Of a DNA stretch of 64,000 nucleotides, positions 45,790 to 50,203 are shown piece after piece. Origin of the DNA: Prochlorococcus sp. MIT 1341 (lineage in GTDB: Bacteria > Cyanobacteriota > Cyanobacteriia > PCC-6307 > Cyanobiaceae); NCBI RefSeq assembly GCF_034092415.1, contig NZ_CP139304.1, forward strand, positions 1,472,001 to 1,536,000, in the 5' to 3' direction. The position numbers and the translations under genes were made by a program. Each line of letters opens with the position of its first letter. Within the stretch, counting starts at the first letter, position 1. The notes under the pieces were generated by a model. The model was not told the origin of the DNA. It saw nothing but the letters and a program-made list of their open reading frames with translations, and ran no database searches.

Positions 45790-46599
45790 ATGACTGATGA
45801 ACAGGAAAATTTGGTTCAAGAATCGCCGGTCAATTTGGCTATAGATCCAGATGTGTTAGCAAGTGAGTTAGCAGCTGAACTACTTGGAGATCCCCTTGAT
45901 GAGATCGATTTTGAGGGGTTTGATCCAGATTCTCTGCAAATTGCTATGGAATGCGAGTCTGGCTTGACTTGGCTAAAGGAAGGGCATGAGCAACGTCTTC
46001 AGGGCTTAAGAGTTTTCTGTGAGCATAGAGATCCACGAGCCTTGCCACTGTTAATTCCCTTGTTAAAAGAGCCGTGCCCCGTTGAACGTATGAGTGCTGT
46101 TTATGCTTTAGGTCGAAACCCTTGTCCTAGGGCTTTGGACCTTTTGCTAAATCTTCTGAAAAATGACTGCAATGCTTATGTGCGGAAGGCAACGGCTTGG
46201 AGTTTAGGGAATTATCCGGATGATTTGGTGCTGCAACCGTTAATAAATGCGTTGAAGAATGATGTTTCAGCAGTGAGACTATGGGCCTCGAGTTCATTGG
46301 CTGATGTAGTCGGCACTTCTTCTGAAAAAGCTGCCAAAGCTTCTGAACAGCTTTTAATTAGCCTTAAGATTGATAGTGAGCCTGTTGTTCGCAGTAATTG
46401 CATATGGGCCCTTGGTCGAATTATTGAGAATTTAGAGGAGTCATTAAGAACCGCACTGATAGATGCTTTCTTTGATGTCTTGCTCAATGATGTTGAGTCT
46501 TCGGTGCGAGATGAAGCAAGAATTGTTTTGGAGCAATTAGGCACTGGGATTGTTAGGACTCGCCTTCAAGAGCTGATCGATGATGGCGTTTTGGTTTGA
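45790..46599 (+). CDS. HEAT-repeat (PBS-lyase-like) protein
   Basis: The 269-residue protein has an acidic N-terminus (1-60) and then a run of HEAT-like helix pairs from about 65 to 265, with repeat motifs RMSAVYALGR, VRKATAWSLGNYP, VRLWASSSLADV, VRSNCIWALGR and VRDEARIVLEQLG. This is the EZ/PBS-lyase HEAT type found in CpcE/F-like bilin lyases and in many protein scaffolds; lyase activity cannot be assumed. It starts a same-strand run with DUF2997, Ycf35 and a ferredoxin. Confidence 0.8.
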   Translation: MTDEQENLVQESPVNLAIDPDVLASELAAELLGDPLDEIDFEGFDPDSLQIAMECESGLTWLKEGHEQRLQGLRVFCEHRDPRALPLLIPLLKEPCPVERMSAVYALGRNPCPRALDLLLNLLKNDCNAYVRKATAWSLGNYPDDLVLQPLINALKNDVSAVRLWASSSLADVVGTSSEKAAKASEQLLISLKIDSEPVVRSNCIWALGRIIENLEESLRTALIDAFFDVLLNDVESSVRDEARIVLEQLGTGIVRTRLQELIDDGVLV

Positions 46600-46688
46600 G
46601 TTTGCTAATGCTTACGCATTTGTGTAACAACTTATGCACAGAAGATGGAATTCTTTCTATAAAATCAAGCTCCTAAAGGATAAAACGG

Positions 46689-46892
46689 ATGCCTCAAAGG
46701 ACCTTACGTTTTCGGATTAGACAAGATGGTCGGGTGGAGGAGTCAGTAACCGGCGTTCTTGGTGAATCGTGTCAAGTACTTACAGAAAAGCTCGAAGCTG
46801 CTTTAGGCTCCGTTGAAGTTAACCATCAGACAGCTGATGCTTTCCGTGTTAACCAAGAAGAAAACCAGTCAATTTCTACTGAATTAAACTAA
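46689..46892 (+). CDS. DUF2997 family protein
   Basis: The 67-residue protein starts MPQRTLRFRIRQDGRVEESVTGVLGESC and fits DUF2997: a beta-hairpin with RxDGRVxE followed by a helix (residues 28-45). Its TAA stop overlaps the ATG of the next gene by one base (TAATG), a strong sign of coupled translation with Ycf35. The function is unknown. A purine-rich AAAGGA site lies about 9 nt upstream of its ATG. Confidence 0.75.
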   Translation: MPQRTLRFRIRQDGRVEESVTGVLGESCQVLTEKLEAALGSVEVNHQTADAFRVNQEENQSISTELN

Positions 46893-47281
46893 TGTCTCAT
46901 TTCAGCATTATTAAAACTCAACTTCGCAAAAAGGAGCATCTTCTAGCAGCTTTAAGAGATCTAGGCATGGTGGCAGAAGCTGAAGAGAAGCTGGTTAGAG
47001 GGTATAGGGGGCAAACTGTAAAGGCCGATCTTGCCGTTTCAGTTAACAAAGGATCAGATATAGGTTTTCGCTGGAACTCTTCAACTGATTCATATGAATT
47101 GGTTGCTGATTTAGATCTTTGGAGTCAGCCAGTTCCGGTAGAGCGTTTTCTTTCCAAACTTACTCAGCAATATGCACTTAATACAGTTCTATCTGCGACT
47201 GCAGAAGAAGGTTTTGCAGTTGAGAAACAGGCAAATAATCTTGATGGGTCGATCGAGTTAGTAGTAACACGTTGGGATTAA
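46892..47281 (+). CDS. ycf35: Ycf35 / DUF1257 family protein
   Basis: The 129-residue protein starts MSHFSIIKTQLRKKEHLLAALRDLG, the typical Ycf35 (DUF1257) opening, and continues with the GYRGQTVKADLAV and DIGFRWN strands. It is encoded in red-algal plastids and most cyanobacteria, with no settled role. Its start overlaps the DUF2997 stop, and the ferredoxin gene starts 9 bp after its stop. The two small proteins probably act together. Confidence 0.85.
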   Translation: MSHFSIIKTQLRKKEHLLAALRDLGMVAEAEEKLVRGYRGQTVKADLAVSVNKGSDIGFRWNSSTDSYELVADLDLWSQPVPVERFLSKLTQQYALNTVLSATAEEGFAVEKQANNLDGSIELVVTRWD

Positions 47282-47290
47282 AAAGTAATC

Positions 47291-47683
47291 TTGGTGCCAG
47301 TAGATCCTTCAACAGCTTTTAGAGTTTTAGTAGGTAATTCAGACGCTCCCAATGGCTCTGAACCTCGTTTAGGTGGTCAGCTTAGGGAGCGTGCCATATG
47401 GGTAGATGAATCCGTTTGTATTGGATGTCGATATTGTTCACATGTAGCAACTAATACTTTTGTTATTGAGCCATTATTAGGTCGATCAAGAGTTATACGC
47501 CAGAATGGTGATAGTACTGATTTGGTTCAAGAAGCTGTTGACACTTGTCCAGTCGATTGCATTCATTGGGTTCCGTTTGAGGACCTTGACCGTTTAAGAG
47601 AAGAATTAGAACTAATGGAAATCCAACCTTTGGGATTTCCTCCAAAAAAGTCAAATCGGTTGAAAAAACGTAGAAATATCTGA
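47291..47683 (+). CDS. 4Fe-4S ferredoxin
   Basis: The 130-residue protein carries CIGCRYC (Cys43, Cys46, Cys49) and CPVDC (Cys86, Cys90), enough for one 4Fe-4S cluster, with a spacer longer than in the classical small ferredoxins. The C-terminus is basic (KKSNRLKKRR). It starts at TTG 47291 or GTG 47294. The tight spacing after Ycf35 suggests it feeds electrons to the product of this run; the partner is unknown. Confidence 0.88.
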   Translation: MVPVDPSTAFRVLVGNSDAPNGSEPRLGGQLRERAIWVDESVCIGCRYCSHVATNTFVIEPLLGRSRVIRQNGDSTDLVQEAVDTCPVDCIHWVPFEDLDRLREELELMEIQPLGFPPKKSNRLKKRRNI

Positions 47684-47691
47684 TCAGATCA

Positions 47692-48900
47692 TTGCTGAAT
47701 AATTCTCTCCCTTCTCGCCGCTTCGGCCGAACAGGTTTGGAAATGCCTGTACTTTCTTTAGGGAGTATGAGGTTTCAGCAGAGTTGGGATGATTTACCGT
47801 CTAGGGATATTGATAGTTCTTCTCAGAATAAGTTGGAGGAGATTCTTCGTCTTGCTGTGCGCAAAGGGTTTCACCATGTTGAAACTGCAAGGCATTACGG
47901 CACTTCAGAGCTACAACTTGGCTGGGCTTTGCGTAATGTCCCAGACTCTAAGAGGCTTCTTCAGACGAAAGTTCCTCCTAGGCAAGACCCGCACATCTTT
48001 GAGAGGGAATTAGAGCTTAGCTTTAAGAATTTGCAATGCGATTACTTGCATCTTTTAGCTATACATGGGTTAAACCATTCAGAGCATCTCGAACAAACAT
48101 TAAGGCCGGGTGGATGTATGGAAGTAGTGCGACAATGGCAATCAGAAGGACGGATTGGACATGTTGGTTTTTCAACTCATGGCCGTACAGATTTCATCCT
48201 GAAGGTTATTGAAACAGATCAATTTGATTACGTTAATCTTCATTGGTACTATATTAATCAAGACAATTCTTCGGCTATTCAAGCAGCAAAAGATAGAGAT
48301 CTTGGTGTTTTTATTATTAGCCCTACCGATAAGGGTGGCCATTTGCACACTCCATCCTCTTGCCTTGAAAAACTTTGTAGTCCTCTTCCTCCAATCGTTT
48401 TTAATGATCTTTTTTGTTTAGCGAACCCTCTGGTTCATACTATTAGTGTTGGGTTAGCGTGTCCAGGTGATATAGATAATCATCTTGAGGCCGTAAAGCT
48501 TTTACCACAAGCAAATCAGTTGGTAGCGCCTATTCATAATCGTTTAACAGAAGCTGCCCGCCTTTCACTTGGAGATGACTGGTTGGGAACTTGGAGGGTT
48601 GGTTTACCTTCTTGGGAGGACACACCCGGAGGAATAAACCTTACAGTTTTGCTTTGGCTGCACAATCTTATTGAGTCTTGGGAAATGGAGAATTTTGCAA
48701 AAGCTCGTTATTCTCTTTTAGGAAATGGAGGTCATTGGTTCCCAGGGGAGAATGCAGATCTTTTGGATAAGGAAGTTAGCCAAAGAGACTTAGAAAAGGC
48801 CCTTGAAGAAAGTCCTTGGGGAAAGGAGATACCATTAATATTGCGAAAATTAAAGAAAAGGCTTGGCGGTGGATCAAAGCAAAGACTCGGGAAATATTAA
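47692..48900 (+). CDS. Aldo/keto reductase family protein
   Basis: The 402-residue protein has a TIM-barrel AKR domain (residues about 8-300) with VETARHYGTSE near 62-72 (catalytic Tyr), QTKVPPR near 92 (Lys), and HLLAIHG near 121 (His). The C-terminal 100 residues are an extra helical part. The start is TTG at 47692, 8 bp after the ferredoxin stop. AKRs of this size often work with NADPH; the substrate is unknown. It converges with rsmG, overlapping by 4 bp. Confidence 0.85.
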   Translation: MLNNSLPSRRFGRTGLEMPVLSLGSMRFQQSWDDLPSRDIDSSSQNKLEEILRLAVRKGFHHVETARHYGTSELQLGWALRNVPDSKRLLQTKVPPRQDPHIFERELELSFKNLQCDYLHLLAIHGLNHSEHLEQTLRPGGCMEVVRQWQSEGRIGHVGFSTHGRTDFILKVIETDQFDYVNLHWYYINQDNSSAIQAAKDRDLGVFIISPTDKGGHLHTPSSCLEKLCSPLPPIVFNDLFCLANPLVHTISVGLACPGDIDNHLEAVKLLPQANQLVAPIHNRLTEAARLSLGDDWLGTWRVGLPSWEDTPGGINLTVLLWLHNLIESWEMENFAKARYSLLGNGGHWFPGENADLLDKEVSQRDLEKALEESPWGKEIPLILRKLKKRLGGGSKQRLGKY

Positions 48901-49720: not shown

Positions 49721-50203
49721 TTGCCGTTCACCCGTGATTATTACGACTTGCTTGGCGTTCCTAGGTCTGCTGATGCATCCACTTTGAGAAGAGCATTTCA
49801 TAAACAAAGTAAAGTTTTCCACCCTGATACGACATCTCTTCCTTCTAGTCAAGCGGCGGAGAAGTTTCAATTGCTCTGCGAAGCTTACGACCTTCTTATA
49901 GATCCTAAAAGGCGAAAATCTTATGATGACAATCTTTCGGATCAGAAAATTTCTGAAAAAACTCTTTTTAAGGAAGAACTTTTCAGTAAGTCCTCATCTT
50001 TTAATGGACTAAAAAAAAAGGAGGTTCTTCGTCCTCTTTCTGGAGGAGAGTTGTTTTCATTGATCCTTTTGGGAGCAACATTTTTTCTTAGCTTGATCAT
50101 TTGCCTCATAGTTCTTTTCACGAAAGGTACTGAGGTACAAATCCTGCCGAGTTGGCTAATCGCAGATCAGACTTTTGATCAAATAAGGCAAGTTTCTAGT
50201 TAG
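49721..50203 (+). CDS. Membrane-anchored J-domain protein
   Basis: The 160-residue protein has an N-terminal J-domain (residues 5-71: DYYDLLGVPRSAD and the HPD motif at 34-36) and a single C-terminal membrane helix (about 111-133). There is no Gly/Phe region or zinc finger, so it is a type III DnaJ that would recruit DnaK to a membrane. The start is TTG at 49721 with GGAG and GAGG sites 5-15 nt upstream. Its stop overlaps a terminator-like hairpin. Confidence 0.87.
   Translation: MPFTRDYYDLLGVPRSADASTLRRAFHKQSKVFHPDTTSLPSSQAAEKFQLLCEAYDLLIDPKRRKSYDDNLSDQKISEKTLFKEELFSKSSSFNGLKKKEVLRPLSGGELFSLILLGATFFLSLIICLIVLFTKGTEVQILPSWLIADQTFDQIRQVSS

Follow-up and report, generated by a model that had tools for sequence, protein, structure and literature searches.

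What do DUF2997 and Ycf35 (DUF1257) do, and which of their neighbours work with them? The question is raised by a locus in the 64,000-nucleotide stretch of the Prochlorococcus sp. MIT 1341 genome analysed here (the window), where genes for a HEAT-repeat protein, DUF2997, Ycf35, a ferredoxin and an aldo/keto reductase (AKR) follow one another on the forward strand. The original prediction took the five for a possible undescribed module in which a HEAT scaffold, an electron carrier and a reductase would serve a redox step on some substrate or protein. All five genes were found where it placed them, and the one-base overlap between DUF2997 and Ycf35 (TAATG) was confirmed. The close spacing held in part: gaps of 9 and 8 bp flank the ferredoxin gene, both depending on uncertain TTG starts, but the HEAT gene lies 89 bp upstream of DUF2997, more loosely placed than the rest of the run. 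The conserved unit, however, comprises three genes, DUF2997-Ycf35-ferredoxin, and not five.

This follows from a comparison of gene order. Order and strand of the trio were kept in all of the 30 best cyanobacterial loci (flanks of about 1.5 kb), in 20/20 loci from cyanobacteria outside the window's family (flanks of about 9 kb; largely the same genomes as the 30) and in 20/20 loci from the family itself. The HEAT, SSF and AKR genes were near the trio in one of the 20 non-family loci, L457, from a 2.8 Mb genome; in the other 19 HEAT and AKR were missing from about 18 kb around it. Within the family, a picocyanobacterial lineage, HEAT was present in 20 and AKR in 19 of 20 loci, as were DnaJ and the opposite-strand rsmG in 20 each. 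Because rsmG and DnaJ are kept as well as HEAT and AKR, synteny in the family shows merely a frozen region. On non-family synteny together with the rsmG control HEAT and AKR were rejected as module members, and the roles of scaffold and reductase proposed for them are not supported. What stands of the module is a trio that is conserved, co-regulated and redox-linked.

Nor is the trio undescribed: duf2997-ycf35-fed7 has been published as 'cluster g', present in nearly all listed cyanobacteria, with Prochlorococcus entered as g', a label undefined in the legend (PMC4284462). The window has the same three genes in the same order, and its ferredoxin, whose gene follows duf2997 and ycf35 in the same orientation as in cluster g, shares the cysteine spacing of Fed7. 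Its translation reads CxxCxxC...CxxxC with five cysteines (C43, C46, C49, C86 and C90), those of Synechocystis Fed7 being C53, C56, C59, C96 and C100 (PMC4284462). Synechocystis fed7 (sll0662) is dispensable, and its loss reduces tolerance to oxidative, metal, salt and low-iron stress; the interactors of Fed7 are FtrC and a DnaJ-like protein, to which the pathway adds Grx2 (PMC4284462). As to co-expression, which the original prediction wanted checked, ssl1263, ycf35 and fed7 of Synechocystis are assigned together to the SigD regulon (PMC8875361); light, iron or heat evokes a response from fed7 and ycf35 (PMC4284462, PMC8875361). Ycf35 is reported to predict the light ecotype of Prochlorococcus, and DUF2997 to occur in other phyla and some viruses (PMC13131479). 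Among 127 red algal plastids both ycf35 and ycf46 are associated with marine habitat, and their losses coincide with habitat (PMC5940233).

A possible clue to the function of the pair lies in second copies of DUF1257. DUF1257 was found in 148 of 292 genomes of the phylum, with a second copy in most of those outside the window's family; the window's 1.94 Mb single-contig genome has one. Of 18 second-copy loci that were fetched, 15 contained a Ycf46-type AAA+ ATPase, 14 an HSP70-like protein, 12 a GrpE-like coil protein (a label resting on the Pfam call of its Chloroflexota relative) and 11 DUF2997. On a Pseudanabaena plasmid these genes form one run, grpE-Hsp70-DUF1257-...-DUF2997-AAA. The Ycf46-type AAA+ (529 aa query, E up to 1e-60) was present in 186/292 genomes and, by hand count, in 145 of the 146 with an intact DUF1257, although kinship among genomes inflates such co-distribution counts. 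One full-length copy (46% identity) is encoded in trans in the window's genome. In genus g51 DUF1257 was broken in G183 and G268 and missing from G147, and a full AAA+ was found in none of the three, which to judge by size are probably reduced genomes of endosymbionts. The same genus (loci L091 and L092) also includes a larger relative. The stress operon slr0373-slr0374(Ycf46)-slr0376 of Synechocystis resembles the second DUF1257 loci in placing an AAA+ beside a small stress gene (PMC7496141, PMC7283877); slr0376 may be the DUF1257 paralogue.

The linked loci hold the same parts (AAA+, HSP70-like, GrpE-like) as DnaK/GrpE and AAA+ unfoldase-adaptor systems. Their HSP70-like proteins, however, score far below the DnaK and HscA cut-offs, and no likeness of DUF1257 or DUF2997 to any known adaptor was found. 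An Fe-S assembly chaperone of the HscA type was rejected, the HSP70 reaching 84 bits against the NCBIfam HscA cut-off of 708.55. An anti-phage defence system (IetA/IteA) was also rejected: the AAA+ of the second loci scored 86 bits against an NCBIfam IteA cut-off of 510 and 96.8 bits with PADLOC IetA, and PADLOC otherwise returned generic AAA+, HSP70 and HEAT matches and a weak viperin-type match on a radical-SAM protein. Separately, marine Synechococcus-type genomes of the family carry a divergent extra DUF1257-like protein (MSHLTILPTV...; L094-L099, e.g. L096 1471-1878), whose gene adjoins argC- and purN-like genes, named by eye.

The ferredoxin shares a sequence element with proteins of some AAA+/HSP70 loci. 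At the N-terminus of Fed7 stand one or two copies of the motif G-x-E-P-x-L-G-G (here called the tag), with the consensus P-E-R-S-G-[LF]-E-P-E-L-G-G-x-L-R. A relaxed pattern found it in 72 of the 77 distinct Fed7 sequences to which 105 open reading frames (ORFs) were reduced; among the other five, the ORF starts inside the tag in two and after it in two, and one has the variant SGRDPVLGG. The motif occurred in 65 of 3593 ORFs of a first set: 62 were Fed7, and three came from one Anaerolineae locus holding AAA+, DUF1257, DUF2997, GrpE-like and HSP70 genes. The DNA pattern matched the window's genome once, in Fed7, and its reversed control not at all; in 21 other photosynthetic genomes the matches lay mostly directly 3' of ycf35, with a few elsewhere and none in G137. 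In the Anaerolineae genome G292 the pattern matched nine times and the control never; every match began between positions 7 and 26 of one of eight proteins, namely six HEAT-repeat proteins, one with a receiver plus HEAT and one FGE-like; three of the nine fell inside the AAA+/DUF1257/DUF2997/GrpE/HSP70 locus. G802, which has the same locus, had six (control 1), three of them N-terminal on HEAT proteins, two of which lie in the AAA+/DUF1257 locus. Background Chloroflexota genomes gave 0-4 DNA matches each, none of the ten inspected being N-terminal, and 38 DUF1257-lacking genomes of that Chloroflexota group were at this level. So were 23 of 25 DUF1257-bearing ones, which rules out the tag as a mark of every such genome. 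The tag is thus a feature of Fed7 and of a single subtype of AAA+/HSP70 locus.

In Chloroflexota DUF1257 was found in 4/251 genomes, and in 25/396 of one such class. Loci from 20 of these 25 genomes were fetched together and four others separately, with G680 left out. In the set of 20, DUF2997 was adjacent in 19, an AAA+ was present in six, and HSP70 and a radical-SAM protein (Fer4_12) in five each. AAA+, HSP70, DUF1257, DUF2997 and radical-SAM genes are consecutive in G508 and G396, with an extra gene between AAA+ and HSP70 in G508; thus an iron-sulfur protein again adjoins DUF2997/DUF1257. Elsewhere, in L386-L395, the pair lies among apparent housekeeping genes, a RuvB-like gene being near in L388, L389 and L391 (by eye). 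Ten relatives that do not belong to the photosynthetic class also had DUF1257. A weakly related DUF1257 protein (E 2e-7) at L398 8218-8625, on plasmid pTRESU01 of Treponema succinifaciens, sits within a contractile-tail-like cluster (gp25, baseplate J, sheath, PAAR).

Phages carry the pair as well. An IMG/VR scan yielded at least 571 DUF1257 relatives, and in the 80 viral loci kept from these DUF2997 lay directly upstream in 66, always overlapping by 1-56 bases. Overlapping pairs thus occur in many marine viral contigs, and the coupling (L260 4802-5381; L261 4832-5384; L180-L259) is tighter than in non-family cyanobacterial hosts. Among 50,697 named phage records DUF1257 occurred in 15 and DUF2997 in the same 15, including the Prochlorococcus phages P-SSM2, P-SSM5 and P-SSM7 and nine marine single-virus records; Fed7 was found in none of these 15. 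The copies are annotated 'hypothetical' (T4-GC 174/175). The pair precedes gp43 in P-SSM2; in P-SSM7 it has hli genes on one side and psbA plus a ferredoxin on the other. P-SSM marker genes (any of 12) occurred in 35/80 viral loci, so that a host is indicated for those 35 only, and the tag, near viral pairs, was seen in one of 1161 ORFs, mid-protein. Ycf46-like AAA-ATPases were seen in 120 named phage records, mostly of Vibrio, Mycobacterium and Pseudomonas phages (H34-H43; best identity about 32%) and, judging by the listed names, apparently distinct from the 15.

In a Ycf35 tree, which has few columns, 37 viral and two phage rows fell inside the picocyanobacterial clade (support 100/99) and grouped together (100/95). 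Their nearest neighbour, again on few columns, was a Ycf35 on a long branch, from a family member with a small genome (L060 7542-7934; 98/84). Rows numbered 173 before and 113 after near-identical sequences (>90% within a group) were dropped, and 11 of 24 Chloroflexota loci gave a row, a start pattern being required. The median ratio of nonsynonymous to synonymous substitution rates (dN/dS) was 0.115 for Ycf35 (305 pairs) and 0.23 for DUF2997 (124 pairs), the pairs being of equal length, 60-97% identical and not independent. The nesting in the host clade and the low dN/dS show that the phage genes are host-derived and under selection. They resemble the cyanophage auxiliary metabolic genes psbA, hli and petF in host origin, in purifying selection and, in P-SSM7, in lying beside hli, psbA and ferredoxin. 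The accessible text of the cluster g paper mentions no tag, AAA+/HSP70 linkage or phage copies (PMC4284462), and none of the literature matches listed connects DUF2997/DUF1257 with cyanophages or an AAA+/HSP70 machine. The gene cluster is known; within the literature searched, its tie to AAA+/HSP70, the tag and the phage copies have not been described together.

Conserved residues and predicted folds were also considered. DUF2997 has the invariant residues D13, G14, C28, T32, E36, L39 and G40 (alignment of 42), and Ycf35 an invariant N-terminal MSHF (alignment of 58) that is partly a matter of selection, since the scans used that start. C28 and the MSHF start are candidate functional sites. 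The Ycf35 model was confident (pLDDT 90.8); no solved relative was found by sequence, its KA1 and adaptin-appendage matches, at Z about 5, do not rise above the usual noise, and in BFVD it matched one viral protein (E 2.2e-7). Any likeness of DUF2997 to HMA metal-binding domains is very weak and falls below threshold (E 0.019).

Because the pair is found with a Ycf46 AAA+, often with HSP70 and GrpE, and often with an iron-sulfur protein as third gene, the simplest explanation is that DUF2997 and Ycf35 act as one unit, an adaptor or cofactor of the Ycf46-family ATPase encoded elsewhere in the window's genome. Fed7 would be its tagged iron-sulfur partner, docking on the AAA+ machine through its N-terminal tag or tags and tying the remodelling of some target to redox or iron-sulfur state, as under low iron or oxidants; a protein of photosynthesis or CO2 use would be the likeliest target. 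The tagged partner would thereby set when, or on what, the ATPase acts. Phages may add extra DUF2997-Ycf35 to exploit the Ycf46 and Fed7 of the host. We favour this adaptor role tentatively, at somewhat below an even chance. It builds on the conserved trio, the AAA+/HSP70/GrpE linkage, the co-distribution with Ycf46, the shared tag and the host-derived phage genes; from these we infer a physical complex, recognition of the tag, the target and the direction of electron or cluster flow. The redox step of the original prediction keeps its iron-sulfur protein, which is better read as tied to an AAA+/HSP70-type machine. A bolder version is rather unlikely as a whole: a tag-addressed, iron-sulfur-gated remodelling machine in which the Ycf46 AAA+ with its DUF2997-Ycf35 adaptor would read the tag on Fed7 in cyanobacteria, or on HEAT, FGE-like and receiver proteins in some Chloroflexota, and which the cyanophage pair would redirect during infection.

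Several observations weigh against the adaptor role. AAA+ and HSP70 genes are absent from the gene cluster of the window, G096 has DUF1257 without this AAA+ (the sole exception among the 146), and the AAA+ is present in 41/146 genomes without an intact DUF1257. No such AAA+ or HSP70 was found near the pair in L386-L395 (10 of the 20 Chloroflexota loci, some on short contigs), and DUF1257 is solitary in those non-photosynthetic relatives whose flanking sequence was retrieved. The tag is enriched in just G292 and G802 among the DUF1257-bearing Chloroflexota, and none was found on the Chloroflexota radical-SAM proteins. The Fed7 partners named in the accessible text of the published work are FtrC, Grx2 and DnaJ; Ycf35, DUF2997 and Ycf46 are not among them (PMC4284462). 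Finally, Ycf35 gave no confident match in the PDB (best Foldseek E 0.07, best VIA Z 5.5), and the DUF2997 model was poor (pLDDT 63.5) and went unused.

It might be argued that Fed7 is an electron carrier only, in a Fed1-FtrC-Fed7-Grx2 pathway, with DUF2997 and Ycf35 as its small redox-controlled targets or as helpers in Fed7 maturation; the AAA+/HSP70 linkage would then reflect another job of the paralogues. Two-hybrid and mutant data (PMC4284462) are in keeping with this, as are the single invariant cysteine of DUF2997 with its faint HMA likeness and the separation of the trio's DUF1257 clade from the AAA-linked one. It nevertheless fails to account for the reappearance of the Fed7 tag within an AAA+/DUF1257/HSP70 locus of another phylum, for the acquisition of the pair by phages without Fed7 and for its co-distribution with the Ycf46 AAA+, and we consider it doubtful. 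The tag argument would lapse if the Fed7 tags and those of the Chloroflexota proteins were convergent low-complexity linkers, linked by chance. That only G292 and G802 stand out from the background among the sampled genomes could be so read, but the confinement of all nine G292 matches to N-termini with a silent control, the three of six on HEAT N-termini in G802, the lack of N-terminal matches in the background and the restriction of the motif, in the first ORF set, to Fed7 and three locus proteins make chance improbable.

Alternatively, DUF2997-Ycf35 could help to assemble or repair a photosynthetic complex, with ferredoxin and AAA+ as incidental partners. Retention in plastids, absence or breakage in the three reduced g51 genomes, the position of the pair in P-SSM7 and the light, iron or heat responses of fed7 and ycf35 (PMC4284462, PMC8875361) would all fit. 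DUF1257 nonetheless occurs in Chloroflexota and in relatives outside the photosynthetic class, and such a role is compatible with an adaptor and does not exclude it; on its own it seems to us distinctly unlikely. As for the five-gene module, in which the HEAT scaffold and AKR would be redox partners, adjacency throughout or almost throughout the family and in L457 speaks for it, as do the HEAT proteins of Chloroflexota loci. The lack of these genes near the trio in 19 of 20 loci outside the family and the equal retention of rsmG and DnaJ within it make it very improbable.

Features of the locus in the window, with the basis of each assignment
Feature	Position	Strand	Basis or status
HEAT-repeat protein	45790-46599	+	Neighbour; outside the conserved unit (20/20 family loci, 1/20 elsewhere)
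DUF2997 protein, 67 aa	46689-46892	+	Pfam PF11211, 58.5 bits vs cut-off 24.1
Ycf35/DUF1257 protein, 129 aa	46892-47281	+	Pfam PF06868, 125.9 bits vs cut-off 22.2
Fed7-type [4Fe-4S] ferredoxin	47291-47683	+	Fer4_13; cysteine spacing; operon order
G-S-E-P-R-L-G-G tag, N-terminal, inside ferredoxin	47354-47377	+	Pattern G-x-E-P-x-L-G-G
Aldo/keto reductase (AKR)	47692-48900	+	Neighbour; outside the conserved unit (19/20 family loci, 1/20 elsewhere)
Small DnaJ-domain protein, past rsmG	49721-50203	+	DnaJ PF00226; 20/20 family loci

At the 3' end of the run AKR reaches 4 bp into the convergent rsmG, and a scan for promoters and terminators gave no signal exceeding shuffles. The DnaJ protein of the window, which has a hydrophobic stretch at its C-terminus, is a possible link to Fed7 because the published two-hybrid partner of Fed7 is a DnaJ; it is at most a possible orthologue of Sll1384.

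Plastids retain ycf35 and ycf46, and almost every photosynthetic cyanobacterium has ycf35, ycf46 and DUF2997, which gives these genes a wide bearing. With one ATPase and one tagged ferredoxin, three separate puzzles (ycf35, ycf46 and DUF2997) would become one testable question. The phage copies suggest that the pair may limit something during infection of the ocean's most abundant photosynthetic cells.

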